Of a DNA stretch of 64,000 nucleotides, positions 3,695 to 58,958 are shown piece by piece; positions within the stretch are counted from its first letter, which is position 1, and each line of letters starts with the position of its first letter. Under the pieces are notes generated by a model. It was not told the origin of the DNA and searched no databases. It worked only from the letters and a program-made list of their open reading frames with translations. The DNA is from Robertmurraya dakarensis (GTDB lineage: Bacteria; Bacillota; Bacilli; Bacillales; Cytobacillaceae), in assembly GCF_900156875.1 (NCBI RefSeq), contig NZ_LT707409.1, positions 904,113 to 968,112 of the forward strand. Direction: 5' to 3'. The position numbers were made by a program, and so were the translations under genes.

Positions 3695-3730
3695 TTGTTT
3701 ATCATTTTTATTAAAGAAAATCTTTACACC

Positions 3731-34036: not shown

Positions 34037-35128
34037 TTAGTTGTAATCCGTCTGGTAACCTTTGATGTCTGGACGAGGGATGTCATCCCATCTATCAGCG
34101 TTAACATCGTACACTTCACCTGTTGCTAATCCATAAAGCAGATTTTGGATACCTAGGACATTATGTCGAATATTATGGCCGCGAGCTTTCTGACCTAAGT
34201 TGCCGTCACGCGTATTTCCGGATGTTTCAAAGAAAACAGCTGGGTGACTATGATTGTCTTCGTTTATACCGTCATATTCAAGGCCAAGCATCATCGCTGA
34301 AACAACACCGCCTTTTATATCAATTTCAGTGAAGCCATCTCTTGCATTGCCTGTTGTGTAACGATCAATATTCGTATACCCATAATCTTTTAAAGAATCA
34401 TACACGTATACTTGGGCTTGTCTTGTAACTTCATCATATTCTCCATTCTTAATTCCTGGAAGAGTAGGTCCACCTGGTGCTAATGAAACCCCAAGCGACA
34501 TCGTTACAGCTTCACCTGTTTGAGAATCCTTTTTTAATCCTTGGTGGTGAATATCAATTCCGAAATCTGGCTTAACTTCTGCCCAGTAGGTGAACCAAGC
34601 TAGCGATTCAACTGCTTCAAATCCATCTTTCTTCCAGTCACGGTTTAAATCGATAGAATCTTTATTTCCACGAGTATTCTTTTCACTTCCATCCGGATTA
34701 TACATAGGGATGACATAAAGCGTTAGCTCTTCTAAAACTTTCTGGATTTCCGGTGATTGGTTGCTAACATACATTTTAAGTAGTTCTAAAGTAGCTTCGG
34801 TACCATATGGCTCATTTCCGTGGATTCGGCCTTGGATCCATACTTTTTCAGGACCTTTTCCGATTTTTGCAACATATAAATCACGGCCTTCTTCACTTTT
34901 GCTATTTTCATAGCCTAATTCTTCTAACGTCTCTACTACTAACTTACCTTTACTTCTCTTTTCAAGCGATTCCAGTTCCTTAATCATGTCATCATACGTT
35001 AGAATACTAGAAATATTCGTATTCCCTTCAGTTGATGGATGATTTGCTTTGGCCAATACATAAGACGAAAAGACCGTGAGCAGCAAGCATGTACTTACTA
35101 AAAAAATAAATACCTTTTTCAAAAACAT
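34037..35128 (-). CDS. Secreted M14-family zinc carboxypeptidase
   Basis: 363 aa with a signal peptide (VFIFLVSTCLLLTVFSSYVLA). The zinc site is H-x-x-E in RIHGNEPYGTEATLEL plus the later histidine in DIHHQG. PDGSEKNTRGNKDSIDLNRD is the substrate-binding segment with the family arginine, and FFETSGNTRDG holds the probable catalytic glutamate. Expected action is removal of C-terminal residues from extracellular peptides or cell-wall stem peptides. GGGAGGTC precedes the ATG. It is the last gene before the large satellite array. Confidence 0.88.
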   Translation of the reverse strand: MFLKKVFIFLVSTCLLLTVFSSYVLAKANHPSTEGNTNISSILTYDDMIKELESLEKRSKGKLVVETLEELGYENSKSEEGRDLYVAKIGKGPEKVWIQGRIHGNEPYGTEATLELLKMYVSNQSPEIQKVLEELTLYVIPMYNPDGSEKNTRGNKDSIDLNRDWKKDGFEAVESLAWFTYWAEVKPDFGIDIHHQGLKKDSQTGEAVTMSLGVSLAPGGPTLPGIKNGEYDEVTRQAQVYVYDSLKDYGYTNIDRYTTGNARDGFTEIDIKGGVVSAMMLGLEYDGINEDNHSHPAVFFETSGNTRDGNLGQKARGHNIRHNVLGIQNLLYGLATGEVYDVNADRWDDIPRPDIKGYQTDYN

Positions 35129-35836
35129 GACCTCCCATTCAAATTTTGTGATATGTACGAATTGAAGTGGTGAAATCTAGCAATCTCCACTTCAATTGTA
35201 TTGGTAATTAGTATAATTCAATATCAATAATGGAAAACACACCCATAAATTACTAATTTTGTAGTAAACTAATATGAATACTTAGTTTTATGGGGATTTG
35301 TTCCTTTATATTACGGTTGAATGGTATTTACAGAAAGTTTAGATAACTAATTTTACCTATAAAAAGAATATGATTTTAGGAATAAGAGCAAGAGAAATTA
35401 GTACATAGACTCATTTTATAAAAGGAAAAAAATAGAAAATGAATAGAAAGTACTAACGTGAATTTTTTAAAAAATTGAGAACGTTCAATTAGGTGTTTAC
35501 GAGTTTAAAGCCGTTGTAATCATGGGAGGCAAAAGTGGGGAATAAAAAGCGTTATATCACTTACAATAATTGATGCATATTTAATTAGTCTTTTTGTATC
35601 ATGCCTTGAAAAGGACTGTTATACTCATTAATATTAGTGAATATATGAATAGATTAATAATTTTAAGTAAGATTGGAGATGAATTTTTATATACAAATTT
35701 GGCGATAAAAAGGCAGTAATTGTTCAATAAAAGGTTTCAAAGTATATTTTTATAAAAAGGGATTAGAAAATGTGGAAACAAATATAATGATAACTCTAAT
35801 CACTTCAATTTTTCCGTTTGTTTATTTAATATAATT
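35129..35836. other. AT-rich intergenic region left of the satellite
   Basis: About 700 bp without a credible gene. It contains the 16-bp palindrome AATTTTTTAAAAAATT at 35462-35477 and, at about 35483-35550, a short open stretch NVQLGVYEFKAVVIMGGKSG that may be a gene remnant but was not identified. Nothing else was recognised. Confidence 0.5.
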
Positions 35837-38800
35837 GAGTCTAAATGCGAAGTTTATACGGACTCTAGCAAGAGAAAACCTTGGCTTTGAGTCTGAATCC
35901 GGAGGTTATTCGGACTCCAGCAAGAGGACATCCAGGAATTGAGTCTGAATGCGAAGTTTATTCGGACTCTAGCAAGAGGAAACCCTGGCTTTAAGTCTGA
36001 ATCCGGAGGTTATTCGGACTCCAGTCAGAGGAACCCCAGTCACTGAGTCTGAATCCGGAGGCTATTCGGACTCCAGTCAGAGAAACCCCAGTCACTGAGT
36101 CTGAATCCGAAGATCATTCGGACACCAGCAAGAGGACATCCAGGAATTGAGTCTGAATGCGAAGTTTATTCGAACTCTAGCAAGAGAAAACCTTGGCTTT
36201 GAGTCTGAATCCGGAGGCTATTCGGACTCCAGTCAGAGGAACCCCAGTCACTGAGTCTGAATCCGAAGGTCATTCGGACACCAGCAAGAGGACATCCAGG
36301 AATTGAGTCTAAATGCGAAGTTTATACGGACTCTAGCAAGAGAAAACCCAGGCTTTGAGTCTGAATCCGGAGGTTATTCGGACTCCAGTCAGAGGAACCC
36401 CAGTCACTGAGTCTGAATCCGAAGATCATTCGGACACCAGCAAGAGGACATCCAGGAATTGAGTCTGAATGCGAAGTTTATTCGGACTCTAGCAAGAGAA
36501 AACCCTGGCTTTGAGTCTGAATCCGGAGGCTATTCGGACTCCAGTCAGAGGAACCCCAGTCACTGAGTCTGAATCCGAAGGTCATTCGGACACCAGCAAG
36601 AGGACATCCAGGAATTGAGTCTGAATGCGAAGTTTATTCGGACTCTAGCAAGAGAAAACCCTGGCTTTGAGTCTGAATCCGGAGGCTATTCGGACTCCAG
36701 TCAGAGGAACCCCAGTCACTGAGTCTGAATCCGAAGGTCATTCGGACACCAGCAAGAGGACATCCAGGAATTGAGTCTGAATGCGAAGTTTATTCGGACT
36801 CTAGCAAGAGAAAACCCTGGCTTTGAGTCTGAATCCGGAGGCTATTCGGACTCCAGTCAGAGGAACCCCAGTCACTGAGTCTGAATCCGAAGGTCATTCG
36901 GACACCAGCAAGAGGACATCCAGGAATTGAGTCTGAATGCGAAGTTTATTCGGACTCTAGCAAGAGAAAACCCTGGCTTTGAGTCTGAATCCGGAGGCTA
37001 TTCGGACTCCAGTCAGAGGAACCCCAGTCACTGAGTCTGAATCCGAAGGTCATTCGGACACCAGCAAGAGGACATCCAGGAATTGAGTCTGAATGCGAAG
37101 TTTATTCGGACTCTAGCAAGAGAAAACCCTGGCTTTGAGTCTGAATCCGGAGGCTATTCGGACTCCAGTCAGAGGAACCCCAGTCACTGAGTCTGAATCC
37201 GAAGGTCATTCGGACACCAGCAAGAGGACATCCAGGAATTGAGTCTGAATGCGAAGTTTATTCGGACTCTAGCAAGAGAAAACCCTGGCTTTGAGTCTGA
37301 ATCCGGAGGCTATTCGGACTCCAGTCAGAGGAACCCCAGTCACTGAGTCTGAATCCGAAGGTCATTCGGACACCAGCAAGAGGACATCCAGGAATTGAGT
37401 CTGAATGCGAAGTTTATTCGGACTCTAGCAAGAGAAAACCCTGGCTTTGAGTCTGAATCCGGAGGCTATTCGGACTCCAGTCAGAGGAACCCCAGTCACT
37501 GAGTCTGAATCCGAAGGTCATTCGGACACCAGCAAGAGGACATCCAGGAATTGAGTCTGAATGCGAAGTTTATTCGGACTCTAGCAAGAGAAAACCCTGG
37601 CTTTGAGTCTGAATCCGGAGGCTATTCGGACTCCAGTCAGAGGAACCCCAGTCACTGAGTCTGAATCCGAAGGTCATTCGGACACCAGCAAGAGGACATC
37701 CAGGAATTGAGTCTGAATGCGAAGTTTATTCGGACTCTAGCAAGAGAAAACCCTGGCTTTGAGTCTGAATCCGGAGGCTATTCGGACTCCAGTCAGAGGA
37801 ACCCCAGTCACTGAGTCTGAATCCGAAGGTCATTCGGACACCAGCAAGAGGACATCCAGGAATTGAGTCTGAATGCGAAGTTTATTCGGACTCTAGCAAG
37901 AGAAAACCCTGGCTTTGAGTCTGAATCCGGAGGCTATTCGGACTCCAGTCAGAGGAACCCCAGTCACTGAGTCTGAATCCGAAGGTCATTCGGACACCAG
38001 CAAGAGGACATCCAGGAATTGAGTCTGAATGCGAAGTTTATTCGGACTCTAGCAAGAGAAAACCCTGGCTTTGAGTCTGAATCCGGAGGCTATTCGGACT
38101 CCAGTCAGAGGAACCCCAGTCACTGAGTCTGAATCCGAAGGTCATTCGGACACCAGCAAGAGGACATCCAGGAATTGAGTCTGAATGCGAAGTTTATTCG
38201 GACTCTAGCAAGAGAAAACCCTGGCTTTGAGTCTGAATCCGGAGGCTATTCGGACTCCAGTCAGAGGAACCCCAGTCACTGAGTCTGAATCCGAAGGTCA
38301 TTCGGACACCAGCAAGAGGACATCCAGGAATTGAGTCTGAATGCGAAGTTTATTCGGACTCTAGCAAGAGAAAACCCTGGCTTTGAGTCTGAATCCGGAG
38401 GCTATTCGGACTCCAGTCAGAGGAACCCCAGTCACTGAGTCTGAATCCGAAGATCATTCGGACACCAGCAAGAGGACATCCAGGAATTGAGTCTGAATGC
38501 GAAGTTTATTCGGACTCTAGCAAGAGAAAACCTTGGCTTTGAGTCTGAATCCGGAGGCTATTCGGACTCCAGTCAGAGGAACCCCAGTCACTGAGTCTGA
38601 ATCCGAAGGTCATTCGGACACCAGCAAGAGGACATCCAGGAATTGAGTCTAAATGCGAAGTTTATACGGACTCTAGCAAGAGAAAACCCAGGCTTTGAGT
38701 CTGAATCCGGAGGTTATTCGGACTCCAGTCAGAGGAACCCCAGTCACTGAGTCTGAATCCGAAGATCATTCGGACACCAGCAAGAGGACATCCAGGAATT

Positions 38801-41800
38801 GAGTCTGAATGCGAAGTTTATTCGGACTCTAGCAAGAGAAAACCCTGGCTTTGAGTCTGAATCCGGAGGCTATTCGGACTCCAGTCAGAGGAACCCCAGT
38901 CACTGAGTCTGAATCCGAAGGTCATTCGGACACCAGCAAGAGGACATCCAGGAATTGAGTCTGAATGCGAAGTTTATTCGGACTCTAGCAAGAGAAAACC
39001 CTGGCTTTGAGTCTGAATCCGGAGGCTATTCGGACTCCAGTCAGAGGAACCCCAGTCACTGAGTCTGAATCCGAAGGTCATTCGGACACCAGCAAGAGGA
39101 CATCCAGGAATTGAGTCTGAATGCGAAGTTTATTCGGACTCTAGCAAGAGAAAACCCTGGCTTTGAGTCTGAATCCGGAGGCTATTCGGACTCCAGTCAG
39201 AGGAACCCCAGTCACTGAGTCTGAATCCGAAGGTCATTCGGACACCAGCAAGAGGACATCCAGGAATTGAGTCTGAATGCGAAGTTTATTCGGACTCTAG
39301 CAAGAGAAAACCCTGGCTTTGAGTCTGAATCCGGAGGCTATTCGGACTCCAGTCAGAGGAACCCCAGTCACTGAGTCTGAATCCGAAGGTCATTCGGACA
39401 CCAGCAAGAGGACATCCAGGAATTGAGTCTGAATGCGAAGTTTATTCGGACTCTAGCAAGAGAAAACCCTGGCTTTGAGTCTGAATCCGGAGGCTATTCG
39501 GACTCCAGTCAGAGGAACCCCAGTCACTGAGTCTGAATCCGAAGGTCATTCGGACACCAGCAAGAGGACATCCAGGAATTGAGTCTGAATGCGAAGTTTA
39601 TTCGGACTCTAGCAAGAGAAAACCCTGGCTTTGAGTCTGAATCCGGAGGCTATTCGGACTCCAGTCAGAGGAACCCCAGTCACTGAGTCTGAATCCGAAG
39701 GTCATTCGGACACCAGCAAGAGGACATCCAGGAATTGAGTCTGAATGCGAAGTTTATTCGGACTCTAGCAAGAGAAAACCCTGGCTTTGAGTCTGAATCC
39801 GGAGGCTATTCGGACTCCAGTCAGAGGAACCCCAGTCACTGAGTCTGAATCCGAAGGTCATTCGGACACCAGCAAGAGGACATCCAGGAATTGAGTCTGA
39901 ATGCGAAGTTTATTCGGACTCTAGCAAGAGAAAACCCTGGCTTTGAGTCTGAATCCGGAGGCTATTCGGACTCCAGTCAGAGGAACCCCAGTCACTGAGT
40001 CTGAATCCGAAGGTCATTCGGACACCAGCAAGAGGACATCCAGGAATTGAGTCTGAATGCGAAGTTTATTCGGACTCTAGCAAGAGAAAACCCTGGCTTT
40101 GAGTCTGAATCCGGAGGCTATTCGGACTCCAGTCAGAGGAACCCCAGTCACTGAGTCTGAATCCGAAGGTCATTCGGACACCAGCAAGAGGACATCCAGG
40201 AATTGAGTCTGAATGCGAAGTTTATTCGGACTCTAGCAAGAGAAAACCCTGGCTTTGAGTCTGAATCCGGAGGCTATTCGGACTCCAGTCAGAGGAACCC
40301 CAGTCACTGAGTCTGAATCCGAAGGTCATTCGGACACCAGCAAGAGGACATCCAGGAATTGAGTCTGAATGCGAAGTTTATTCGGACTCTAGCAAGAGAA
40401 AACCCTGGCTTTGAGTCTGAATCCGGAGGCTATTCGGACTCCAGTCAGAGGAACCCCAGTCACTGAGTCTGAATCCGAAGGTCATTCGGACACCAGCAAG
40501 AGGACATCCAGGAATTGAGTCTGAATGCGAAGTTTATTCGGACTCTAGCAAGAGAAAACCCTGGCTTTGAGTCTGAATCCGGAGGCTATTCGGACTCCAG
40601 TCAGAGGAACCCCAGTCACTGAGTCTGAATCCGAAGGTCATTCGGACACCAGCAAGAGGACATCCAGGAATTGAGTCTGAATGCGAAGTTTATTCGGACT
40701 CTAGCAAGAGAAAACCCTGGCTTTGAGTCTGAATCCGGAGGCTATTCGGACTCCAGTCAGAGGAACCCCAGTCACTGAGTCTGAATCCGAAGGTCATTCG
40801 GACACCAGCAAGAGGACATCCAGGAATTGAGTCTGAATGCGAAGTTTATTCGGACTCTAGCAAGAGAAAACCCTGGCTTTGAGTCTGAATCCGGAGGCTA
40901 TTCGGACTCCAGTCAGAGGAACCCCAGTCACTGAGTCTGAATCCGAAGGTCATTCGGACACCAGCAAGAGGACATCCAGGAATTGAGTCTGAATGCGAAG
41001 TTTATTCGGACTCTAGCAAGAGAAAACCCTGGCTTTGAGTCTGAATCCGGAGGCTATTCGGACTCCAGTCAGAGGAACCCCAGTCACTGAGTCTGAATCC
41101 GAAGGTCATTCGGACACCAGCAAGAGGACATCCAGGAATTGAGTCTGAATGCGAAGTTTATTCGGACTCTAGCAAGAGAAAACCCTGGCTTTGAGTCTGA
41201 ATCCGGAGGCTATTCGGACTCCAGTCAGAGGAACCCCAGTCACTGAGTCTGAATCCGAAGGTCATTCGGACACCAGCAAGAGGACATCCAGGAATTGAGT
41301 CTGAATGCGAAGTTTATTCGGACTCTAGCAAGAGAAAACCCTGGCTTTGAGTCTGAATCCGGAGGCTATTCGGACTCCAGTCAGAGGAACCCCAGTCACT
41401 GAGTCTGAATCCGAAGGTCATTCGGACACCAGCAAGAGGACATCCAGGAATTGAGTCTGAATGCGAAGTTTATTCGGACTCTAGCAAGAGAAAACCCTGG
41501 CTTTGAGTCTGAATCCGGAGGCTATTCGGACTCCAGTCAGAGGAACCCCAGTCACTGAGTCTGAATCCGAAGGTCATTCGGACACCAGCAAGAGGACATC
41601 CAGGAATTGAGTCTGAATGCGAAGTTTATTCGGACTCTAGCAAGAGAAAACCCTGGCTTTGAGTCTGAATCCGGAGGCTATTCGGACTCCAGTCAGAGGA
41701 ACCCCAGTCACTGAGTCTGAATCCGAAGGTCATTCGGACACCAGCAAGAGGACATCCAGGAATTGAGTCTGAATGCGAAGTTTATTCGGACTCTAGCAAG

Positions 41801-42066
41801 AGAAAACCCTGGCTTTGAGTCTGAATCCGGAGGCTATTCGGACTCCAGTCAGAGGAACCCCAGTCACTGAGTCTGAATCCGAAGGTCATTCGGACACCAG
41901 CAAGAGGACATCCAGGAATTGAGTCTGAATGCGAAGTTTATTCGGACTCTAGCAAGAGAAAACCCTGGCTTTGAGTCTGAATCCGGAGGCTATTCGGACT
42001 CCAGTCAGAGGAACCCCAGTCACTGAGTCTGAATCCGAAGGTCATTCGGACTCCAGCAAGAGGATA
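35837..42066. repeat. Giant palindromic satellite: 119 full 52-bp units plus one partial, 156-bp higher-order repeat
   Basis: Every unit opens with GAGTCTGAAT, has a 9-nt loop and continues ATTCGGACTC, so it can form a stem of about 10 bp with one G-T pair. A linker of 23 nt follows. Three unit types alternate in fixed order. A has loop GCGAAGTTT and linker ending CCCTGGCTTT. B has CCGGAGGCT and CCCCAGTCACT. C has CCGAAGGTC, arm GGACAC (one stem mismatch) and CCAGGAATT. A-B-C is 156 bp and repeats 38 times from 36149. The first start (35837) and last start (42025) are exactly 119 x 52 bp apart, so there are no net indels. Stop codons occur in every frame and no gene lies inside. Early units differ most, while the centre is almost uniform. 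Confidence 0.97.
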
Positions 42067-42197
42067 TCAATACAGTCATTCCCAATCTACTAATTAGCAA
42101 AAGTTCTAGGAAGATAATTGAGTTACCGATGATGTGATATGGCTGAACATCCGGTCATTTGAAGGAAGAAGGGTACATTTAGGAGAGGGTGAGTTAA

Positions 42198-42350: not shown

Positions 42351-42439
42351 TAGTTAGGTTAAAAGAAATCAAGAAGTTTTGAAACTTTTGACTAATAAGT
42401 TCGTAAAAATAATTGAAACTTAATAAGCGGGGTGTAGTT

Positions 42440-42760
42440 TTGCAAACTAATAGTCAAACGTCTCAGAAATTAGAAACTTCAACTAAAAAGGAGCTAAGCT
42501 TGAGAAAATTATTAAATGTAATAGGACTCTTCATCTTTGGCGGAATTGCGTTAACCCTTGTCACAAGTCCAGTTTATTCGGATGAAATCGGCAATTTTCT
42601 ATTATTTTTCTTGGGAAGTGCCAGCATCTATTACCTTTTAGTGAATATCTATTTTCAAGGTGGATTATGGAGAAAAGTGTTCTTTGCAGCACTGTTGATC
42701 CTAGGTGGTTTTAGTATAGTGATGGCAATCTACCTTTCTACTAACCCAATTCCACATTAA
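42440..42760 (+). CDS. Three-helix membrane protein, 106 aa
   Basis: TTG start 6 nt after GGGGTG; an upstream TTG at 42413 lacks a ribosome binding site. A polar N-terminus (QTNSQTSQKLETSTKKELSL) precedes hydrophobic helices at about residues 28-46, 54-74 and 80-100. Own terminator at 42782. Family not recognised. Confidence 0.6.
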   Translation: MQTNSQTSQKLETSTKKELSLRKLLNVIGLFIFGGIALTLVTSPVYSDEIGNFLLFFLGSASIYYLLVNIYFQGGLWRKVFFAALLILGGFSIVMAIYLSTNPIPH

Positions 42761-43334: not shown

Positions 43335-44504
43335 TCATTCCCCAATTCTAATTTTTCTATTTTTAAATGAACCTGAATGTTCAAGCGTAATCGCTGCATG
43401 AATTCCTTTTATGCTATCTTCCCTTAAGAGAGTTTCCTGCTCCTTTAGCCTTTTCCAGTCAGAATGATGCTTTCGATAAAGCTGATGCTCAAGGTTCAGA
43501 AAGTCCACGTTATGCTTTAGACCTAATTGGTATAGATCCCTTATTTCCGCAATAATTGTTTCCTGGGTGAAGTCTTCCATTGCCTCAATATTTATCACAT
43601 TATTTTTCATCCGATTACTGATCAGACCCGTCGCCAGATAGGTAAGCTTGAACTCAAAGTTATCGTTAGATTTAATAGGTTGAATGTCAAAAGCCTGATT
43701 TTTAAGAACAGCGACAAATTCTGGATTATTCCCCTCTGGCACGAGCAAAGAAGCCCGCTGCGTTTCGGATGTAATCCATCGCATTCCCTTGAGCTGCTCC
43801 CAAGAGAAAAAACCTTGGAAGTCTTGTCCCTTAAGATAGAAGGCACCATTGATTTCTAATTTCGGCTCTTTCTTACTGTTAATTGCCCATTGTTTCTTAT
43901 TGACAGAAAGAGAAGGCAAATAGGTGGTTCGTCCTGGTTCAGTGACTTCCCTTGCCATTCTGTTTAATTTTACAGGCTTAATCGTAGAGCTTTGTTCATA
44001 AGAACTCTCTGGACTGTGTAAAATCGTATTCAAGGAACTTTGCTGAAAGAAGCCGGAAGCTGTCAGAATGTCTTCGATAGAATCTTTTGTCGCAAACATC
44101 CACGGGGTTGGGCGGAACTCATAGTATCGCGTTAATCCATCAAAAATATTTCCCAATCCCTGCTCTAGAGCGGATTGAGAAAGGACAATCGCTGTGACAT
44201 GAGCCCAGAGGATCCGTTCCTGTGCCGTATGATAAGCTTTAAAAAACCCATCAATAAAGGTCTTACCCTTTGTTTTTGAAACATACACTTTAGGAGGACT
44301 TTTTTCACCATTCTCGCTTTTTGCGATGGAACCTAAACCAATCATTTGAATATAAATCACGTATTCGTCGTCCACAAAGTCCACGCCGATAGCTGTTGCA
44401 TAGTTTTGGTTTTCGATCTCACCGATATCGCTGCTGCATGAAGTGACGGACATCAAACACAAGATGATGATGAGCCACCAAGTTTTAGAAAATCTACGAA
44501 TCAT
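43335..44504 (-). CDS. Spore germination lipoprotein, Ger(x)C family
   Basis: 389-aa C-subunit of a GerA-type germinant receptor, exported and lipid-anchored to the spore inner membrane. The signal ends in MSVTSC (lipobox), followed by IENQNYATAIGVDF, the start of the GerAC N-terminal domain. The C-terminal Spore_GerAC domain (about 215-380) includes LYQLGLKHNVDFLNLEHQLY and the H-x-DW segment. ATG 44504 lies immediately after the A-subunit stop with GGCGG as ribosome binding site. Expected to be expressed in the forespore from the promoter of the upstream B gene. Confidence 0.92.
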   Translation of the reverse strand: MIRRFSKTWWLIIILCLMSVTSCSSDIGEIENQNYATAIGVDFVDDEYVIYIQMIGLGSIAKSENGEKSPPKVYVSKTKGKTFIDGFFKAYHTAQERILWAHVTAIVLSQSALEQGLGNIFDGLTRYYEFRPTPWMFATKDSIEDILTASGFFQQSSLNTILHSPESSYEQSSTIKPVKLNRMAREVTEPGRTTYLPSLSVNKKQWAINSKKEPKLEINGAFYLKGQDFQGFFSWEQLKGMRWITSETQRASLLVPEGNNPEFVAVLKNQAFDIQPIKSNDNFEFKLTYLATGLISNRMKNNVINIEAMEDFTQETIIAEIRDLYQLGLKHNVDFLNLEHQLYRKHHSDWKRLKEQETLLREDSIKGIHAAITLEHSGSFKNRKIRIGE

Positions 44505-44505
44505 A

Positions 44506-45948
44506 TCATTTTCGCCGCCTCTGTATAAAAGAAGTTTCAAATTTCTTTCGATTAAAAGGGTTCACAGTAAATGCAGCCAATATTTCCTTAAAATTTAAGG
44601 AGGCAACAGGCTCAAGATAAGCGATTTTAAAGGATTCAAGATTACTCACATACAGGAGTGTACTGAAAAAACCAATAAAAAGTCCGTAAACGCCCAAAAA
44701 AATCGAAAGTAGCAAAATATAGAGCCGTAAAACGGTAACGGTACCGACAAGGGATTGGTTAACGAGTGTGTAGCTGGCAACGGCTGTCAATGCAATCATG
44801 ACGATCATCGTAGGGGATGCCATTCCTGCACGTATAGCGGCATCTCCAATAATCAATCCACCAACAATGGAAATGGTTTGTCCAACAACCGTAGGCATGC
44901 GAATCCCGGCTTCTCTTAATAATTCAAAAAGGGCAAGAATAAAAAAGGCTTCTAATCCAATCGGTAAAGGCAAGCCCTCTCGAGATACGATCACTGTAGC
45001 CAGCAAGGCAAAAGGGAGTTGGTCCATATTGACAGAGGATAATGCTACCCAAAACCCTGGCAGGAAAATAGCAATACATAAGCCAATAATCCGAAGAATA
45101 CGACCAAACATCACAAAATAATAGGGGAAATGAATATCTTCAGGTGACTTAACGAGCTCGAAAATATTAATCGGACCAATTAACACAGAGGGGGAACCAT
45201 TTACAATTAGAATAAATCTTCCCCGAAGCATGGTTTCTATCGCAAAATCTGGACGGGTTATATAATCAATCAATGGGAAGAGAGAAAAGCTTTTATCAGA
45301 TAACCATTGCTCCAATTGGCCGCTGCTTATCACACTTTCCGATTCAAACTCACCCAAACGCTTTCTAACTTCTTCAATGACTTCCATATTGGCTTTATTT
45401 TTTAAATAGAGTAAAGATACTTCGGTTTTACTAAGAGATCCTAATACAAAGGACTCACAATAAAGCTGTTCAGACTTCATCCTTTTCCGAATCAGTGAGA
45501 TGTTAACATTCATTTCCTCTGTAAAGCTATCCTTTGGACCCTTGATTGACACCTCTGTAGTAGATTCTTCCGGATTACGTTGAGGAATTTTGCCAATATC
45601 AAATACATGAAAAAAAGAGGTGCCTTCCTTGTAAAGAATAAGAAACCCCGAAAATACAGAATTCAGCATTTCCTTGATATTTCGGACATGCTTGACAGGA
45701 GGAAGTTCACCGATTTGATTCCGATGGTGCTCGTCGGTACTGATACTTAGAAGAATACGATTGAAATATTCATTTAGCTGAGAGGTATCCAGCATTCCTT
45801 TACAATAGAACACTTGAAGTGCTAAATCATCCTCCAGCGAAATAAATTCAATATCACCATAGTGTTTGAAAAAACTGTTGATATCCTCAGTAGTCAATTC
45901 TCCATTTTGTAAAGCCTTTTGTAATTCATCCATTTGGTTCTCGTTCAT
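44506..45948 (-). CDS. Spore germination protein, GerA family (A subunit)
   Basis: 480-aa integral membrane A-subunit of a germinant receptor. A soluble N-terminal half (residues 1-260, including ISLIRKRMKSEQLYCESFVL and YITRPDFAIETMLRGRFILI) precedes five membrane helices (about 280-300, 305-330, 360-380, 395-430). GLPLPIGLEAFFILALFELL and REAGIRMPTVVGQTISIVGG are family signature segments. It overlaps the B-subunit stop by 4 nt. With B and C it detects small nutrients and starts spore germination. Germinant specificity is not predictable. Confidence 0.94.
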   Translation of the reverse strand: MNENQMDELQKALQNGELTTEDINSFFKHYGDIEFISLEDDLALQVFYCKGMLDTSQLNEYFNRILLSISTDEHHRNQIGELPPVKHVRNIKEMLNSVFSGFLILYKEGTSFFHVFDIGKIPQRNPEESTTEVSIKGPKDSFTEEMNVNISLIRKRMKSEQLYCESFVLGSLSKTEVSLLYLKNKANMEVIEEVRKRLGEFESESVISSGQLEQWLSDKSFSLFPLIDYITRPDFAIETMLRGRFILIVNGSPSVLIGPINIFELVKSPEDIHFPYYFVMFGRILRIIGLCIAIFLPGFWVALSSVNMDQLPFALLATVIVSREGLPLPIGLEAFFILALFELLREAGIRMPTVVGQTISIVGGLIIGDAAIRAGMASPTMIVMIALTAVASYTLVNQSLVGTVTVLRLYILLLSIFLGVYGLFIGFFSTLLYVSNLESFKIAYLEPVASLNFKEILAAFTVNPFNRKKFETSFIQRRRK

Positions 45949-47027
45949 ACGTCTTGATATCCTCTCTTAATAGGCAGATAACTGATCAAAAGCAGGGCAA
46001 ACGTAAAGATTATGCTGCTAATAAAAGCAATTGGATAAAAGAATTTCCCGACCATGATTTGAACCCACATATCACTTGTTGGAACAGTTGTCACAACTGC
46101 TAATGCAAGAGACACGATTACGAGTAGTATGATTTTTTTTCGATTAGAACGCATCTTCAGGCAATCTAAGAGCAGATATAATCCTAAAGACACGCGAATA
46201 ACCACTCCGCTTAACAATTGAAAAACGGCTAAAAAGTCTACATGGGAAACATATTCCCCCAAAGTAATCAGCCTCCACTGTTCAAATGCAGGGAAGCGCA
46301 TATCTGCTGCTACAGTTGGCCCAAATGATGAGATGACCCCTAGCGTTGGACCGAGGATCAATCCAGTCAGAGTCGTGATCAGAATAAAAAGATTGAAAAA
46401 ACTAAATGATTTCTTCATATGATGCTGGACCATCAAAAGAATTAGAAAATCTGCACTCCCGCCAAGAATGACGATGATCCCTTTTATAATTGGATCATAG
46501 CCTTCAACCAGTATTGGAAAAATGTAAGAATAATCTTTTTCCTGCATCGTGAAAAAGGCAACAAAATACCCTAACAACCATACGATTGGCAATAAAACCG
46601 CGGACATATAAACAATCGATTTCATTCCGCTATAGGCGGAAAAGGCGCATATTAATAGGAAGGGCAGCATAACCACAAACGATGGAGTTTGTGGAAGAAA
46701 ATAAATATTCACCGATTGTATTAAGTCATAAAAGGATATACCACTAATGGTTAATACATAAAGGAACAGAAATGCAATAATCAAGCGTGAGATCACCTTG
46801 CCAGTACGTGCCTTTACCCAGTCGTACAATCTTTGTCTTTCTTGATTTCGTTTCATAATCAAAAAAATTAGGAATCCCCAAAGGATCAAGAAAAAATAAG
46901 CAATCAAGGCACACACCCATGCATCACGCTTTCCCGTCGTTAACAAGTGAGGCATAATCAACACATGATTCGATATACCAATAAACAACGTCAGCACAAA
47001 AAACATTTGAAGCCGGGAAAACGTCAC
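45945..47027 (-). CDS. Spore germination protein, GerB family (endospore germination permease)
   Basis: 360-aa APC-fold B-subunit with about ten helices, beginning TFSRLQMFFVLTLFIGISNH. Length fits GerAB/GerKB (about 365). GTG 47027 follows GGTGGTGGTAC. An in-frame extension reaching 47246 would run into the insertion sequence and has no family similarity, so it is rejected. First gene of the B-A-C operon. The insertion sequence starts 187 bp upstream and the leader of the operon may be shortened by it. Confidence 0.9.
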   Translation of the reverse strand: MTFSRLQMFFVLTLFIGISNHVLIMPHLLTTGKRDAWVCALIAYFFLILWGFLIFLIMKRNQERQRLYDWVKARTGKVISRLIIAFLFLYVLTISGISFYDLIQSVNIYFLPQTPSFVVMLPFLLICAFSAYSGMKSIVYMSAVLLPIVWLLGYFVAFFTMQEKDYSYIFPILVEGYDPIIKGIIVILGGSADFLILLMVQHHMKKSFSFFNLFILITTLTGLILGPTLGVISSFGPTVAADMRFPAFEQWRLITLGEYVSHVDFLAVFQLLSGVVIRVSLGLYLLLDCLKMRSNRKKIILLVIVSLALAVVTTVPTSDMWVQIMVGKFFYPIAFISSIIFTFALLLISYLPIKRGYQDV

Positions 47028-47213
47028 AGTACCACCACCAATATCTGGGTCGATACTAGTTATTGTTTGGATATCATTCCATTTTATACAAGTTAAACTG
47101 TGATAAAGGTTTTGATAGAAAAGGAGGGGGAGCGGGGCATAAGGACAGCCGTTACCCATAAAATAATGGGTATTAATATCCAATTGAGAAAGATAATAAA
47201 ATATAAAAAACGA
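47028..47213 (-). promoter_or_regulatory. Leader of the germination operon, bounded by the IS pair
   Basis: 186 bp left between the operon's GTG and the insertion sequence. A forespore-type promoter (sigma-G) is expected here, but no convincing match was found by eye. Before insertion this region continued into the 5' side of the 276-aa membrane protein gene. Confidence 0.3.
47206..47213. repeat. Target site duplication, left copy (AAAAACGA)
   Basis: The same 8 bp occur at 50898-50905, directly after the second IS copy. The pair therefore flanks both copies together. Confidence 0.75.
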
Positions 47214-47294
47214 GGTAGTGTAAAAAGTTCTATGAAAACTTAACACTAACCCTTTGATTCCTTCCAGTTTTTATGTGGTAAGGCCACGCAATCG

Positions 47295-47421
47295 CTCTTG
47301 ACAAACACGCCAATGGTTTAACAAAAGGCTATCAAGGGCGAAGAGGACAAAAAGAAGGCATACCAAATAAGCCCTTGGTTGTTTCCATTTTAAACCATTG
47401 GCAAGTTCGGTTTGTCAAGAG
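47295..47421. other. Long nested hairpin in the IS tail, copy 1
   Basis: CTCTTGACAAAC (47295-47306) pairs with GTTTGTCAAGAG (47410-47421). Inside it CCAATGGTTTAA (47310-47321) pairs with TTAAACCATTGG (47390-47401), and AAGGGC with GCCCTT nearer the apex. There is no T run on either side. It may stop transcription into or out of the IS or be a structured RNA or transposase site. Confidence 0.7.
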
Positions 47422-47470
47422 TTCGCTCCGCCGATTGCTGAATAGCTTAAGGGCTCTGCTAAACAAAAAG

Positions 47471-48910
47471 TTAGGCTACCTGTTGCTCGATAATCCATTG
47501 TTGGGCTAACTCTATAAGCTTTGTCCAACGTGCTGGCATGGTGGGAAGCCCTTGTAATTGAGGGTTTACCACAGGCACTTTTCCTTCTAAGGATGCATGA
47601 GGCCGTAGAAAATTAAAATAGGCCACAAACAAAGTGACAAAGGATACAGATCCTTTTTCCGAACCAAATCCATGAGTCGAGCGATAGTTGCCTTTAAATG
47701 TTCGATTGAGCCTCTCTATAATCTGTTTTAAAGGTCTGTATTCCGTTGAGACTGGGTCTTCATTTGTAAGCCCAATCACTTGCTTCACATCAAAAGAAAT
47801 ATCATGCTGAGCGAAAAAGTGTTGTGCTAAAAGATAGATTGGGTTTCCATCCACTACAAAAGTAAGGTCTTTTGGAATCTCTTTCATCTTTACTAACACT
47901 TCATCTATCGCACGAATGGCTGACGCTGTATCTCGATTGGCAGACACCGGGTAAGATAGGATGATCTTTTTCACTGCGTCAAAAAAGAAAAACAAATAAT
48001 GCCAGCGTCCATTCACTCGAATATAAGTTTCATCACCACAAAATTGATCTGAAAGATCATACGGATAGTGATCGACGTAAGGCTTAAGCAAGAGCGCAAC
48101 ACTATTTTCGTAGTTCAATATCGTCTGATGAGAAATCATAACTCCGTGAACATCCTGCATAATCGCGGCTGTTTTACGGGCCGAAAGGCCATAGTTTACA
48201 TGATAGGTCAATATAAGTCCTAAGGTATGTGGGGATGCATAAATCCTAGATAAATCCACTCTCGGCAACTCTGGTGAATCTTTGGATAAAGGTTGAAATT
48301 CAATATGAAACTGACGAAAAATGTATCTCAGTTTAAATGCCTGAGGGTCCTTTCTAAACCTTTTCTTCTCTTTTGAAGACATTGCGTTTATTTTCTTTTG
48401 ATAGTAAGAACAATCATTGTTTTTACATTTGTACACATCAAAGTCTTTACGTTCCTTGATTTTTTCTAGAGTCTTCGAACAATGAGGGCACTTCAAAATG
48501 GCCTCTTTGGAATAACGGCTTTTATCATTGAAAAGACAGGAACAGACTTTGCATAGATACTGTCCTTTATCTCCATTATTGGCATAAAGGTAATCTGATG
48601 GAGCACCACACTTTGGACAGTTCATAGATTTAGGGACTGAAATTTTTGCATTCTTACGCCTTTGAACAGGTTTAAGGGGTTTCCCGTTTTTCTCTAAGTA
48701 TTCAGTAAGGAGAAGTTGATAATCGAGATTTTCTAGTAGTTCTATGATCGGTAGATCATCTACCTGAAGTTTACGATAGGGTTTATTCACCGGCTGTTCT
48801 GTTGGCTTATCAAACATACTTTTACCAATTAATAAGGTAAGTAATGTTCGAATCATTTGTTCTTGATAGTTTATAAAAGTTAATAAATAGGTTATAATTT
48901 GAGGGTACAA
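47471..48910 (-). CDS. DDE transposase with N-terminal zinc ribbons, copy 1
   Basis: 479 aa. Two CxxC..CxxC clusters lie at about residues 98-123 (CPKCGAPS and CKVCSCLF) and 145-170 (CPHCSKTL and CKNNDCSYY). The catalytic core has DETYIRVNGRWHYLFFFFD for the first acid, FVVDGNPIYLL for the second and QIIERLNRTFKGNYRS for the glutamate. The layout is similar to IS6-type DDE enzymes. TTG start with TGGAAGTGAC upstream. Intact, so probably still active. Confidence 0.9.
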   Translation of the reverse strand: MYPQIITYLLTFINYQEQMIRTLLTLLIGKSMFDKPTEQPVNKPYRKLQVDDLPIIELLENLDYQLLLTEYLEKNGKPLKPVQRRKNAKISVPKSMNCPKCGAPSDYLYANNGDKGQYLCKVCSCLFNDKSRYSKEAILKCPHCSKTLEKIKERKDFDVYKCKNNDCSYYQKKINAMSSKEKKRFRKDPQAFKLRYIFRQFHIEFQPLSKDSPELPRVDLSRIYASPHTLGLILTYHVNYGLSARKTAAIMQDVHGVMISHQTILNYENSVALLLKPYVDHYPYDLSDQFCGDETYIRVNGRWHYLFFFFDAVKKIILSYPVSANRDTASAIRAIDEVLVKMKEIPKDLTFVVDGNPIYLLAQHFFAQHDISFDVKQVIGLTNEDPVSTEYRPLKQIIERLNRTFKGNYRSTHGFGSEKGSVSFVTLFVAYFNFLRPHASLEGKVPVVNPQLQGLPTMPARWTKLIELAQQWIIEQQVA

Positions 48911-49051
48911 ATTGTCACTTCCATTCTAGGTTGTTGGGTGTGTGGTAACCTCAATTATCCTTAGAATTCAGGGGGTGGCAATTTTTTTGCTTATAAAGCC
49001 CTCTATCAAGGTATTTAATAGCCTATTTCTTATAAAAGTTTTGACAATACG

Positions 49052-49059
49052 AATGGGAA
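49052..49059. other. 8-bp junction between the two IS copies (AATGGGAA)
   Basis: The only sequence separating the two elements. It has exactly the length of the target duplication and does not match the flanking duplication, as expected if a dimer was inserted as one unit and kept 8 bp of its former flank. Confidence 0.75.
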
Positions 49060-49140
49060 GGTAGTGTAAAAAGTTCTATGAAAACTTAACACTAACCCTT
49101 TGATTCCTTCCAGTTTTTATGTGGTAAGGCCACGCAATCG

Positions 49141-49267
49141 CTCTTGACAAACACGCCAATGGTTTAACAAAAGGCTATCAAGGGCGAAGAGGACAAAAAG
49201 AAGGCATACCAAATAAGCCCTTGGTTGTTTCCATTTTAAACCATTGGCAAGTTCGGTTTGTCAAGAG
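49141..49267. other. Long nested hairpin in the IS tail, copy 2
   Basis: The same two nested stems as in copy 1, displaced by 1,846 bp. Confidence 0.7.
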
Positions 49268-49316
49268 TTCGCTCCGCCGATTGCTGAATAGCTTAAGGGC
49301 TCTGCTAAACAAAAAG

Positions 49317-50756
49317 TTAGGCTACCTGTTGCTCGATAATCCATTGTTGGGCTAACTCTATAAGCTTTGTCCAACGTGCTGGCATGGTGGGAAGCCCTTG
49401 TAATTGAGGGTTTACCACAGGCACTTTTCCTTCTAAGGATGCATGAGGCCGTAGAAAATTAAAATAGGCCACAAACAAAGTGACAAAGGATACAGATCCT
49501 TTTTCCGAACCAAATCCATGAGTCGAGCGATAGTTGCCTTTAAATGTTCGATTGAGCCTCTCTATAATCTGTTTTAAAGGTCTGTATTCCGTTGAGACTG
49601 GGTCTTCATTTGTAAGCCCAATCACTTGCTTCACATCAAAAGAAATATCATGCTGAGCGAAAAAGTGTTGTGCTAAAAGATAGATTGGGTTTCCATCCAC
49701 TACAAAAGTAAGGTCTTTTGGAATCTCTTTCATCTTTACTAACACTTCATCTATCGCACGAATGGCTGACGCTGTATCTCGATTGGCAGACACCGGGTAA
49801 GATAGGATGATCTTTTTCACTGCGTCAAAAAAGAAAAACAAATAATGCCAGCGTCCATTCACTCGAATATAAGTTTCATCACCACAAAATTGATCTGAAA
49901 GATCATACGGATAGTGATCGACGTAAGGCTTAAGCAAGAGCGCAACACTATTTTCGTAGTTCAATATCGTCTGATGAGAAATCATAACTCCGTGAACATC
50001 CTGCATAATCGCGGCTGTTTTACGGGCCGAAAGGCCATAGTTTACATGATAGGTCAATATAAGTCCTAAGGTATGTGGGGATGCATAAATCCTAGATAAA
50101 TCCACTCTCGGCAACTCTGGTGAATCTTTGGATAAAGGTTGAAATTCAATATGAAACTGACGAAAAATGTATCTCAGTTTAAATGCCTGAGGGTCCTTTC
50201 TAAACCTTTTCTTCTCTTTTGAAGACATTGCGTTTATTTTCTTTTGATAGTAAGAACAATCATTGTTTTTACATTTGTACACATCAAAGTCTTTACGTTC
50301 CTTGATTTTTTCTAGAGTCTTCGAACAATGAGGGCACTTCAAAATGGCCTCTTTGGAATAACGGCTTTTATCATTGAAAAGACAGGAACAGACTTTGCAT
50401 AGATACTGTCCTTTATCTCCATTATTGGCATAAAGGTAATCTGATGGAGCACCACACTTTGGACAGTTCATAGATTTAGGGACTGAAATTTTTGCATTCT
50501 TACGCCTTTGAACAGGTTTAAGGGGTTTCCCGTTTTTCTCTAAGTATTCAGTAAGGAGAAGTTGATAATCGAGATTTTCTAGTAGTTCTATGATCGGTAG
50601 ATCATCTACCTGAAGTTTACGATAGGGTTTATTCACCGGCTGTTCTGTTGGCTTATCAAACATACTTTTACCAATTAATAAGGTAAGTAATGTTCGAATC
50701 ATTTGTTCTTGATAGTTTATAAAAGTTAATAAATAGGTTATAATTTGAGGGTACAA
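49317..50756 (-). CDS. DDE transposase with N-terminal zinc ribbons, copy 2
   Basis: Translation is the same as the copy-1 transposase over all 479 residues, including both zinc ribbons and the DDE residues. Either copy could supply the enzyme for both elements. Confidence 0.9.
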   Translation of the reverse strand: MYPQIITYLLTFINYQEQMIRTLLTLLIGKSMFDKPTEQPVNKPYRKLQVDDLPIIELLENLDYQLLLTEYLEKNGKPLKPVQRRKNAKISVPKSMNCPKCGAPSDYLYANNGDKGQYLCKVCSCLFNDKSRYSKEAILKCPHCSKTLEKIKERKDFDVYKCKNNDCSYYQKKINAMSSKEKKRFRKDPQAFKLRYIFRQFHIEFQPLSKDSPELPRVDLSRIYASPHTLGLILTYHVNYGLSARKTAAIMQDVHGVMISHQTILNYENSVALLLKPYVDHYPYDLSDQFCGDETYIRVNGRWHYLFFFFDAVKKIILSYPVSANRDTASAIRAIDEVLVKMKEIPKDLTFVVDGNPIYLLAQHFFAQHDISFDVKQVIGLTNEDPVSTEYRPLKQIIERLNRTFKGNYRSTHGFGSEKGSVSFVTLFVAYFNFLRPHASLEGKVPVVNPQLQGLPTMPARWTKLIELAQQWIIEQQVA

Positions 50757-50897
50757 ATTGTCACTTCCATTCTAGGTTGTTGGGTGTGTGGTAACCTCAA
50801 TTATCCTTAGAATTCAGGGGGTGGCAATTTTTTTGCTTATAAAGCCCTCTATCAAGGTATTTAATAGCCTATTTCTTATAAAAGTTTTGACAATACG

Positions 50898-50905
50898 AAA
50901 AACGA
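50898..50905. repeat. Target site duplication, right copy (AAAAACGA)
   Basis: Matches 47206-47213. Lies 20 bp before the next gene's ATG. Confidence 0.75.
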
Positions 50906-53393: not shown

Positions 53394-54227
53394 ATGGGGT
53401 TTCATCAACCACAGCGAATTGCTGAGTTAGCGGTTGAAGCCGGAGCTCGCAAGGCTTCATTGCCATTGGTAACGATGCTTATGCTTGGTTTTCTTGGCGG
53501 AGCTTTTATCGCAATGGGGTTTCTTCTTGATATAAGAATTGTGGCAGGGCTTCCGGCTGAATGGGGGACTTTTAATACTTTTTTAGGTGCAGCCGTGTTT
53601 CCGGTAGGTCTCATTTTACTTATTATTGCTGGCGGCGAACTCCTTACTGGGAATATGATGGCCGTGACCATTGCTTGGGCCTCACGTAAAACAACTACAT
53701 CTAAATTACTGAACAACTGGTTCTGGATTACAATTAGTAATTTTGCAGGCAGTATTTTTGTTGCTTACTTGTTTGGACATGTCATTGGATTAACAGAAAC
53801 CGAGCCATATTTATCAAGCACAATTGCCATGGCAGAAGGAAAGCTCAATGCTGGATTTTGGGCAAGCCTCATATCTGGGATTGGCTGTAATTGGATGGTT
53901 GGTCTTGCCGTATGGTTATCCTATGGTGCAGATGATATTGGCGGGAAAATTCTCGCGATTTGGTTTCCAATTATGGGATTTGTCGCGATAGGCTTTCAAC
54001 ACGTAGTTGCAAATATGTTTTTAATACCCGCAGCGATTTTTGCCGGCTATTTTAGCTGGGTTGACTATTTCGGAAACTTCATTGCTGTTTTCATTGGGAA
54101 TGTAATCGGGGGAGGTTTATTTGTTGCCTTTGCCTATTATATTGCGTATATCGGCAATGCGGAGCCTGTTGTGGAAAAAGGAAGTAATCTATTGCAAATA
54201 AAAAACAGACAAAAAGCAAGGAGGTAG
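53394..54227 (+). CDS. Formate/nitrite transporter family channel (FocA/YrhG-like)
   Basis: 277 aa with six helices and the family segments LGGAFIAMGFLLDIRIVAGL, GGELLTGNMMAVTIAWASRK and NWMVGLAVWLSYGADDIGGK. AGGGAGGAG precedes the ATG. Directly followed (3 bp) by formate dehydrogenase, so it most likely imports formate for it. First gene of the formate operon. Confidence 0.9.
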   Translation: MGFHQPQRIAELAVEAGARKASLPLVTMLMLGFLGGAFIAMGFLLDIRIVAGLPAEWGTFNTFLGAAVFPVGLILLIIAGGELLTGNMMAVTIAWASRKTTTSKLLNNWFWITISNFAGSIFVAYLFGHVIGLTETEPYLSSTIAMAEGKLNAGFWASLISGIGCNWMVGLAVWLSYGADDIGGKILAIWFPIMGFVAIGFQHVVANMFLIPAAIFAGYFSWVDYFGNFIAVFIGNVIGGGLFVAFAYYIAYIGNAEPVVEKGSNLLQIKNRQKARR

Positions 54228-54230
54228 AGC

Positions 54231-57212: not shown

Positions 57213-57684
57213 TAAATCGGTTCCAAATCCCGTGACAGAACAGATGCAAGCTGTATCAGAACTATTGAATGCGATAACGGAGAATAAAGAAGTACTGCTC
57301 ACCACGATTGACATTTTAAAAGGACTGCATGAAATGGGGGTTTTAGACGCTGCCAAAGCAATGCTGGAGCAGCGTACAGATATTGGCGCAATCGCCATTC
57401 AGCAGATTAATCAGCCCGCCATGCATAATACGATCAAAAATGCTATGAATGCGTTTAAATTTTTAGGATCCATTGACCCGGATCAGCTTCAAGCGATTCT
57501 CAATGGAGTTAGTCAAGGATTCGACCGGTCTGCGGAAGTTTTAAAAAATGGTGAAAATCAAAGTTTATGGAAGTTAGGGACTAGCTTGCGTGACCCTGAT
57601 GTTAAAGCCTCCTTGTCTACGATGATGGAATTTTTACATGGAATGGGAGAAGCGTTCAATCAGGACCCGAAAAATGTTCATTAA
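57187..57684 (+). CDS. DUF1641 protein (YrhD/YjgD-like)
   Basis: 165 aa, helical, soluble. AKAIRQISKSVPNPVTEQMQ and the DUF1641 core (HNTIKNAMNAFKFLGSIDPD; LQAILNGVSQGFDRSAEVL). Always placed after formate dehydrogenase in bacilli (yrhE-yrhD, yjgC-yjgD). GGGGGAGGC precedes ATG 57187, and the gene overlaps the end of fdhA by 26 nt, showing translational coupling. Its role is unknown; assembly or subunit function is plausible. Confidence 0.87.
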   Translation: MAKAIRQISKSVPNPVTEQMQAVSELLNAITENKEVLLTTIDILKGLHEMGVLDAAKAMLEQRTDIGAIAIQQINQPAMHNTIKNAMNAFKFLGSIDPDQLQAILNGVSQGFDRSAEVLKNGENQSLWKLGTSLRDPDVKASLSTMMEFLHGMGEAFNQDPKNVH

Positions 57685-57698
57685 AGGGAGGTTGAAGG

Positions 57699-57911
57699 AT
57701 GGAAAAAGCCAAGTTGAAACTTGAGGGAGTAGAATCCCAGGATGATGCAGATAAAGTCCTTCATGCTTTACACGAAGTTTGGGGGATTCGAGAGGCAGAG
57801 GTCAATTTTAACAGTAAAGAAGCACTGTTCAGTTTTGATGAGAAGTCTGCCTCATTGCAGGATTTTGAACAAGCGGTGATTGATTCTGGTTTTCATGTGA
57901 CGAAGCAGTAG
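57699..57911 (+). CDS. HMA-fold protein without CxxC
   Basis: 70 aa with the beta-alpha-beta-beta-alpha-beta pattern of heavy-metal-associated proteins (AKLKLEGVESQDDADKVLHA ... VWGIREAEVNFNSKEALFSF ... AVIDSGFHVTKQ), but the metal-binding CxxC is replaced by ESQD. It therefore cannot bind copper like CopZ. GGGAGG precedes the ATG. Position inside the formate operon suggests a protein-protein or cofactor role. Confidence 0.7.
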   Translation: MEKAKLKLEGVESQDDADKVLHALHEVWGIREAEVNFNSKEALFSFDEKSASLQDFEQAVIDSGFHVTKQ

Positions 57912-57932
57912 GAGTGAAAGGAGGGAAAAAGG

Positions 57933-58076
57933 ATGAAGGTTTGTGAAGTTTGCGGAACAGAGGAAGAATGGAGTCAAAGTGAGAAGGACGAAACGAGAAT
58001 GGAAACAGGGTTGCTTCACGTTTGTGATACTTGTCAGCAAGACCGAAATTTTCATCCATTTGACCGTTTTGAATAA
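57933..58076 (+). CDS. 47-aa zinc-ribbon protein in the formate operon
   Basis: Reads MKVCEVCGTEEEWSQSEKDE ... GLLHVCDTCQQDRNFHPFDR. Two CxxC knuckles separated by about 25 residues form a treble-clef/zinc-ribbon fold. AAGGAGGG lies before the ATG. It ends 78 nt before fdhD. Too short to be picked by length filters, but the ribosome binding site, paired cysteines and operon position argue for a real gene. It could help metal or sulfur delivery to FdhA. Confidence 0.75.
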   Translation: MKVCEVCGTEEEWSQSEKDETRMETGLLHVCDTCQQDRNFHPFDRFE

Positions 58077-58154
58077 TGGGAAGGTTGGTGGGCGTACCAT
58101 TTATCAGAACTGCCCATCAACCGGCCACTTCTTTAATTTGAAGGAGAGATGGGT

Positions 58155-58958
58155 GTGAAACCAATACAGGTAAAACGGCAGACCTTGAGATTTACCAATG
58201 GCAATGCCGAACAAACCGAGGATCACATCGTAACCGAATACCCCGTAACGGTTAAATTGAATGGAAATGAACTTGTGACGATGGTCTGCACACCAGAATA
58301 CATCGAGGACTTAGTGATTGGCTTTTTAGCCTCTGAAGGGGTCATTCGGAGATATGAGGACATTCAAGATATATGGATTCAAGAAAAAGATGGATTTGTT
58401 CATGTCAAAACAGAGAAAGTGAATCCCTTTTATCAAAAAATACAAAGCAAAAGATACATTACCTCATGCTGCGGGATGAATAGACAAGGTTTTGTCTTTG
58501 CTAGTGATGCTTTGACGGCAAAGAAAGTAAATGGAGTTCAGGTAAAGCTCTCAGTGGACGATACCTTTCGCTTGATGAATGATTTGCAGAACGCTGCGAC
58601 TGTATTTCAACAAACCGGCGGCGTCCACAATGCGGCACTATGTGATGTGAACGGGATGATCCTATCAAGAATGGACATTGGCCGGCATAATGCTTTAGAT
58701 AAAATTTATGGCTACTGCTTAAAAAATCAACTGTCAATATCTGATAAAATCATTGCATTCAGCGGTAGGATTTCCTCTGAGATCTTAATAAAAGTAGCAA
58801 AAATCGGGTGTGAGATTGTTCTTTCAAAATCAGCCCCAACCGAACTAGCACTGGAACTAGCAGAACAATTAGGCATCACCACCATCGGCTTTGTTCGCAA
58901 CCGCTCCTTGAATGTATATACCTATCCCGACCGAATCTTAAATGCGTCAAATCTTTAA
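58155..58958 (+). CDS. fdhD: Formate dehydrogenase accessory sulfurtransferase FdhD
   Basis: 267 aa. FdhD moves sulfur from a cysteine desulfurase to the molybdenum cofactor of formate dehydrogenase. YITSCCGM carries the conserved cysteines near 105, and GVHNAALCDVNG and DIGRHNALDKIYGYCL are signature segments. GTG 58155 lies 8 nt after AAGGAG; ATG 58149 is too close to it. It completes the formate module. Confidence 0.92.
   Translation: MKPIQVKRQTLRFTNGNAEQTEDHIVTEYPVTVKLNGNELVTMVCTPEYIEDLVIGFLASEGVIRRYEDIQDIWIQEKDGFVHVKTEKVNPFYQKIQSKRYITSCCGMNRQGFVFASDALTAKKVNGVQVKLSVDDTFRLMNDLQNAATVFQQTGGVHNAALCDVNGMILSRMDIGRHNALDKIYGYCLKNQLSISDKIIAFSGRISSEILIKVAKIGCEIVLSKSAPTELALELAEQLGITTIGFVRNRSLNVYTYPDRILNASNL

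Follow-up and report, generated by a model that had tools for sequence, protein, structure and literature searches.

Why many Bacillota keep dozens of 52-bp tandem arrays of seemingly unrelated sequence is an open question in print. Subirana and Messeguer (2021) counted 1886 arrays of 51 to 53 nt in 176 Bacillus genomes (∼30% of species), with a constant repeat length, a sequence that is not conserved, and a function that these authors regard as unknown, nucleoid proteins or small RNAs being their proposals; they also remark that one repeat often contains a short signal together with its reverse (PMC8161180). The window, by which is meant the whole stretch of 64,000 nucleotides that was analyzed, contains an unusually long member of this published Bacillota 52-bp satellite class, and the question that it raises is what maintains such a repeat. 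TRF reports it as the sole array in the window, at 35833-42068 (period 156, 40.0 copies, 98% match, 0% indel), and an in-frame cut from 35837 gives 120 units of 52 bp. These comprise 14 distinct sequences and fall by loop into types A (n = 40), B (n = 41), and C (n = 39).

35837..42076, no strand: 52-bp satellite of 120 in-phase units with an ABC higher-order period of 156 bp (TRF and in-frame unit cut)
36617..36645, no strand: example dyad of type A, GAGTCTGAAT-N9-ATTCGGACTC, containing GTC-N19-GAC (pattern match)
36669..36697, no strand: example dyad of type B (pattern match)
36721..36749, no strand: example dyad of type C, GGACAC, in which the second pair is an A-A mismatch (pattern match)

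The initial annotation described 119 complete units plus one partial with no net indel; the count is right, since the linker of the final unit decays, and TRF gives 0% indel. It also had each unit holding GAGTCTGAAT-N9-ATTCGGACTC, a stem with one G-T pair. The T-G pair is found in 120/120 units, and the arm pair is exact in 77/120, with 40 further units 1 base off and 3 units 2 off; an A-A mismatch at the second stem pair is present in 38 units (type C). Matches to the dyad pattern with three or fewer mismatches number 237 on both strands, versus 0.02 expected, and GTC-N19-GAC is retained in 119/120 units. The alternation of types A, B, and C with a 156-bp period stands, except that the first six units lie outside this order. 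In the A/B/C consensus, 1/20 columns are variable in the arms versus 17/32 in loop and linker (Fisher p 0.0003), so that loops and stems do not vary equally, a check that had been proposed at the outset, and the stem is constant beyond loop and linker as had been claimed; a constraint on the inverted repeat above that on loop and linker is supported by this pattern.

The initial annotation called the array noncoding, which is borne out: it contains no open reading frame (ORF) of at least 100 aa, and the ABC consensus has stop codons in 6/6 frames, ruling out a protein-coding array. No Rfam family is matched at gathering score within the array, and a known RNA family was thus discarded as its identity; the window has no tRNA according to ARAGORN. 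Carriage by a plasmid or phage was likewise rejected, the window unit having no match in plasmids and one weak match in phages (E 0.3). Seven published 52-nt families, compared with plasmids only, also have no match, and neither does the window's arm pattern in viral contigs.

The immediate neighbors of the array are as follows, and the germination operon among them indicates a spore-forming host.

34037..35128, minus strand: left neighbor, a zinc carboxypeptidase (Peptidase_M14) with its 5' end towards the array
42413-42760: 115-aa ORF without a family match, between the array and the GerX-type genes
43335..47246, minus strand: right neighbor, GerXA/GerXB/GerXC-type spore germination genes with their 3' end towards the array

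Other features of the window include two identical 1841-bp insertion sequence copies in tandem, 5 bp apart, at 47213-50899, each coding for a 479-aa IS6/IS240-like DDE transposase; relatives of this insertion sequence are present on plasmids, near full-length in Geobacillus (64-68% identity) and over half its length in Aeromonas sp. Ne-1 (89%). A tie between the array and this neighboring element was dropped, no arm with one or fewer mismatches being found elsewhere in the 64-kb window. There is also a c-di-AMP riboswitch (ydaO/yuaA leader, 88.7 bits) at 3728-3875, and at 53394-58958 a formate/nitrite transporter, a molybdopterin oxidoreductase (formate dehydrogenase-like), and FdhD stand in a row.

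The way in which the array lengthened can be read from its units. Identity is 98.6% at a three-unit shift and 76.9% at a one-unit shift, units 7-49 (counted from 0) are repeated without change 45 units further on, the rare variants 9, 10, and 5 among them, and the most diverged units are the first five.

35837..36148, no strand: left edge, diverged, with six units that break the ABC order (A, B/C hybrid, A, B-like, B, C; from the unit list)
36201..38436, no strand: 43-unit exact duplication (2236 bp), copy 1, with the rare variant units 9-10-5
38541..40776, no strand: 43-unit exact duplication, copy 2, at a shift of 45 units (2340 bp)

The array grew by unequal exchange between register-matched repeats. 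An exact 43-unit duplication and a diverged left edge are the outcome of such exchange, so the three-unit higher-order repeat needs no special machine, and the eukaryote-like higher-order structure that had been singled out is accounted for by unequal exchange. The same duplication, the homogeneous core, and the diverged left edge also fit a neutral satellite, propagated without function by hairpin-aided slippage and unequal crossing-over, with recombination homogenizing the arms, and the class being found in only ∼30% of the species studied (PMC8161180) accords with this too; we nonetheless consider it doubtful on comparison with other families, as described below. A 6.2-kbp tract of 98%-identical repeats is hard to assemble, but an assembly artefact that inflates the copy number is extremely improbable, as ordered variant units with a nested duplication do not easily come from simple collapse or expansion, and there are shorter relatives in other genomes.

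A search for the repeat in other genomes, recommended in the initial annotation, was run with the arm pattern GAGTCYGAAT-N6..12-ATTCGGACTC against species genomes, requiring exact arms with C or T at one base. It returned 26 loci, none of which matches the window flanks, so the window's own stretch is not among them. Eighteen have the match inside a 51-52-bp array, 16 of these being called by TRF (L015 at 51 bp) and the short L007 and L014 by the arm scan. Twelve array loci are in Neobacillus notoginsengisoli, two in Ammoniphilus resinae (Paenibacillaceae), and one each in Aquibacillus, Mesobacillus, Bacillus sp. FJAT-27251, and an uncultured Bacillaceae; the window arms, with C/T allowed at one base, are thus shared with 51-52-bp arrays from four or more named genera. 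Among the matches listed, the arm spacer is 9 throughout the 18 array loci, and at the other 8 loci the match stands alone and the spacers are 6, 7, 8, 10, 10, 10, 11, and 12, as by chance. The sixth arm base is C in most units of the relatives versus T in the window, whose exact arms are found in single units of L004, L005, L014, L020, and L023.

The linkers behave differently within and between genera. The 12 N. notoginsengisoli loci are dispersed in one genome and have related linkers (∼10-15/23 identical in the better orientation). Compared with the Neobacillus consensus, linkers of other genera are at chance in 8/9 comparisons (type A, p 0.04, uncorrected), and loops are slightly closer than shuffles in 2/9 (L015, p 0.03; type C, p 0.04; both uncorrected); no linker homology across genera was found in these nine comparisons, type A weakly excepted. 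The arms recur, then, with unrelated linkers between genera. Because the scan demanded exact arms, their conservation across the 18 loci is partly selected; the 52-bp setting and the survival of arms where linkers are saturated are unselected. Homogenization in a neutral satellite cannot keep arms alike across genera with chance-level linkers, an argument that is tempered by the part of the arm likeness that was selected by the scan.

A smaller signal within the arms extends to part of the published class. GTC-N19-GAC was first spotted by eye and then compared with every other inverted pair (64 trinucleotides, 44 spacings) in 27 published families (periods 50-54), together with 300 base-shuffled sets. 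It is the commonest inverted trinucleotide pair, present in 7/27 families (coagulans 2 and 8, litoralis 42 and 77, oceanisediminis 79, thermoamylovorans 30, and alkalitelluris 71) and absent from 20/27; the shuffled sets reach a maximum of 5, once in 300. Five other arrays happened to lie within the fetched loci, and two of them (L016 and L023) have GTC-N19-GAC, L007, L019, and the first array of L001 being without it. In viral contigs, a three-unit GTC pattern yields one contig, L027, which is a true 52-bp array of new sequence and carries GTC-N19-GAC, the array itself having been found by the bare GTC pattern. A two-unit TGTC pattern gives 19 stretches at N19 versus 6 at N18 and 2 at N20, of which only L027 is an array (38/44 at shift 52); 17 of the 18 remaining N19 stretches are copies of one viral sequence on either strand, and the viral-contig control therefore lends no support beyond L027.

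Pairing within the dyad was examined in 10 families chosen solely by the GTC-N19-GAC anchor, a set that includes similar families (coagulans 8 and litoralis 42). Inside GTC/GAC, 47/58 cells of the six pairs are Watson-Crick (p 3e-18 with cells taken as independent), as are 23/39 of the four outer pairs and 6/26 of the loop pairs, the last being the chance level. Inner pairs match despite differing letters, so symmetry is kept while letters change, a pattern that would fit a hairpin or a dimer site alike and that homogenization in a neutral satellite cannot explain. These counts suggest that part of the 52-nt class may have one small symmetric, hairpin-like motif in common.

Some of the fetched loci have features of their own. 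A second ∼51-bp array in N. notoginsengisoli (L016, 2847-3114) has the dyad AAGTCACCAA...TTGGTGACTT, and there are several dyad families in this one genome. The 21-unit array at 2038-3139 of L023 has arms TTGTTGTCAC...GTGACAACAA, with GTC-N19-GAC kept in its consensus. An Alistipes MAG contig (L012, 476-1001) contains a 188-bp tandem repeat of 2.9 copies.

Whether the dyad acts as DNA or as RNA can be approached through its mismatches, its orientation, and its folding. If the array were transcribed into a many-hairpin RNA, serving as a sponge or a source of small RNAs, the T-G pair of all 120 units would be G-U on the plus strand. One ABC repeat as plus-strand RNA does fold better than shuffles (z -2.7), and the 52-nt repeats of B. 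coagulans have been detected in RNA-seq (PMC8161180 and PMC8625621). The minus-strand RNA folds nearly equally, however (z -1.7; single-stranded DNA, z -1.8), the Rfam search was blank within the array, and stem cells in the 18 other arrays, read in linker orientation, which is meaningful within Neobacillus only, comprise 899 Watson-Crick pairs, 14 G-U, 11 A-C, and 66 other mismatches, with neither a G-U excess nor a strand bias. Flanking genes are convergent at 7, codirectional at 12, and divergent at 3 of the 22 arrays with both neighbors in view (25 looked at), as judged by simple ORF calling, a method that also calls chance ORFs within five arrays and counts one such ORF as an L001 neighbor. 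Among seven Neobacillus arrays of this family between codirectional genes, 2 have the linker in the gene direction and 5 have it opposed (by eye), so the linker's orientation to genes is not constant. The many-hairpin RNA that had been put forward is disfavored by these mismatch and orientation counts, and an RNA function is quite improbable.

The edges of the arrays bear on mobility. With edges placed at random, an outward-facing outermost arm is expected in 19/52 cases. The 18 other arrays have arm2 outermost at the left in 14/18 and arm1 at the right in 13/18, so that 27/36 edges lie inside the palindrome (p 3e-6 on the assumption that arrays are independent, which does not hold for the 12 Neobacillus arrays). 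Three arrays that were not selected by arm sequence (the second arrays of L016 and L023, and L027) agree at 5/6 edges (by eye). A looser extension method places 8/17 left edges in the loop and scatters the right ones (4 loop, 6 arm2, 3 arm1, and 4 linker); its bias is at the left only, and the arm-based count is the figure relied on. In the window array only the right edge fits, through an arm with 3 mismatches, and the left does not.

42077..42086, no strand: right edge, possible decayed outward arm CATTCCCAAT (3 mismatches to GAGTCCGAAT; position to within 1 base)

Edges of this kind are what a mobile palindromic selfish satellite would leave. Such a satellite would spread as arm2-linker-arm1 (43 bp here): a hairpin-cutting or HUH-type endonuclease would open the 7-9 nt loop, and the unit would then be circularized or strung in tandem before insertion at a new site. 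The dispersal of 12/18 array loci in one genome, with related linkers, agrees with this. A target-site duplication was sought by eye and then computationally in the 10/18 arrays with outward arms at both ends and was not found: they have no exact flanking direct repeat of 3 to 12 bp, and their flanking 9-mers show 31 matches versus 23.6 by shuffling, a weak excess (p 0.04). A single arm2-N23-arm1 element with four or fewer mismatches is absent outside the arrays, where three chance-level arm2-arm1 matches occur (spacers 20, 21, and 26, in L008 and L022), and no transposase or Rep gene is tied to the array in the part of the genome covered. With the scattered right edges of the looser method, the misfit of the window's left edge, and the nonindependence of the Neobacillus arrays also against it, such mobility is unlikely, if well worth entertaining. 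A broader conjecture, that 52-bp satellites are largely one family of mobile hairpin DNA (GTC-stem-loop-stem-GAC) with the loop cut by a dedicated endonuclease, tandem strings bounded by outward arms, and a helix-phased period set by the enzyme, is speculative and rather improbable.

The reading that we prefer, tentatively and at a probability of roughly 0.45, is that the window array is a DNA-level dyad satellite recognized by a putative protein. Its unit is a DNA dyad of two inverted 10-bp arms, with GTC...GAC anchors 22 bp apart and a repeat every 52 bp. The DNA helix has 10.4-10.5 bp per turn; 22 and 52 bp are about two and five helical turns, and half-sites would thus share one face. The dyad may be kept through binding of a putative protein that reads sequence and symmetry, either in the duplex or in an extruded form; binding could create a condensed nucleoprotein patch, aid the repeat's own spread, or both, and so might serve the cell or the repeat, and ordinary recombination would then lengthen and homogenize the array. 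Among the roles first listed for the locus, the two that still read best are a protein-binding array and a selfish repeat. The dyad anchor in part of the class, the stem kept as letters change, and the edge bias turn the open question into testable claims, namely a protein that reads GTC-N19-GAC and movement of arrays between strains, for which the 120 consecutive sites of the window array offer a handy bait.

The dyad satellite can be set beside several known systems. The hairpin of REP elements is recognized by the RAYT transposase. REP/BIME sequences resemble the array as short intergenic palindromes that are dispersed and sometimes in tandem (PMC3733652; see also PMC2817692), but the window has a constant 52-bp head-to-tail array, with no RAYT gene tied to it in the part of the genome covered. 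The window dyad, with its inverted ∼10-bp arms around a 9-bp spacer, is also similar in layout to the CIRCE element, which is bound by HrcA in Bacilli and has inverted arms (9-10 bp) separated by a spacer of 9 bp; the arm sequence differs, however, the window dyads stand in tandem by the dozen, and no chaperone gene is among the immediate annotated neighbors. CRISPR arrays share a partly palindromic ∼29-bp repeat with constant spacing, but here linkers recur within each array, so there are no unique spacers. As for MITEs and other transposable elements, terminal inverted repeats would correspond to the 27/36 fitting edges of the 18 other arrays, but the window's left edge does not fit, and none of the 10 arrays bounded on both sides by outward arms has an exact target-site duplication of 3 to 12 bp.

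The closest system is the 52-nt class itself, and although the initial annotation took the array for a rare kind of object, noncoding arrays of this length are a published and common class in Bacillus (PMC8161180). The window array has the constant period expected of it (51-53 nt in the class; 120 units at 52 bp with 0% indel), is likewise noncoding and in tandem, and belongs to a class in which families differ by species; several arrays per genome with common short signals are seen in N. notoginsengisoli (12 loci). Its core, GTCYGAA-N11-TTCGGAC, also occurs in the Table 1 units oceanisediminis 79 and alkalitelluris 71 (PMC8161180). It differs in size, with 120 units over 6.2 kbp versus mostly 4-10 units in the class, and is ∼3 times longer than the longest case named in the text of that report (37 repeats, >2 kbp; PMC8161180), an earlier survey giving 32 bacterial satellites (2.7%) of more than 1.5 kbp (PMC6749651); it differs also in its three-unit higher-order repeat. 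Neither an account of a shared dyad nor a named binding protein for 52-nt repeats was found in the open-license literature. The authors who defined the class report no sequence conservation, whereas a dyad common to part of it is seen here.
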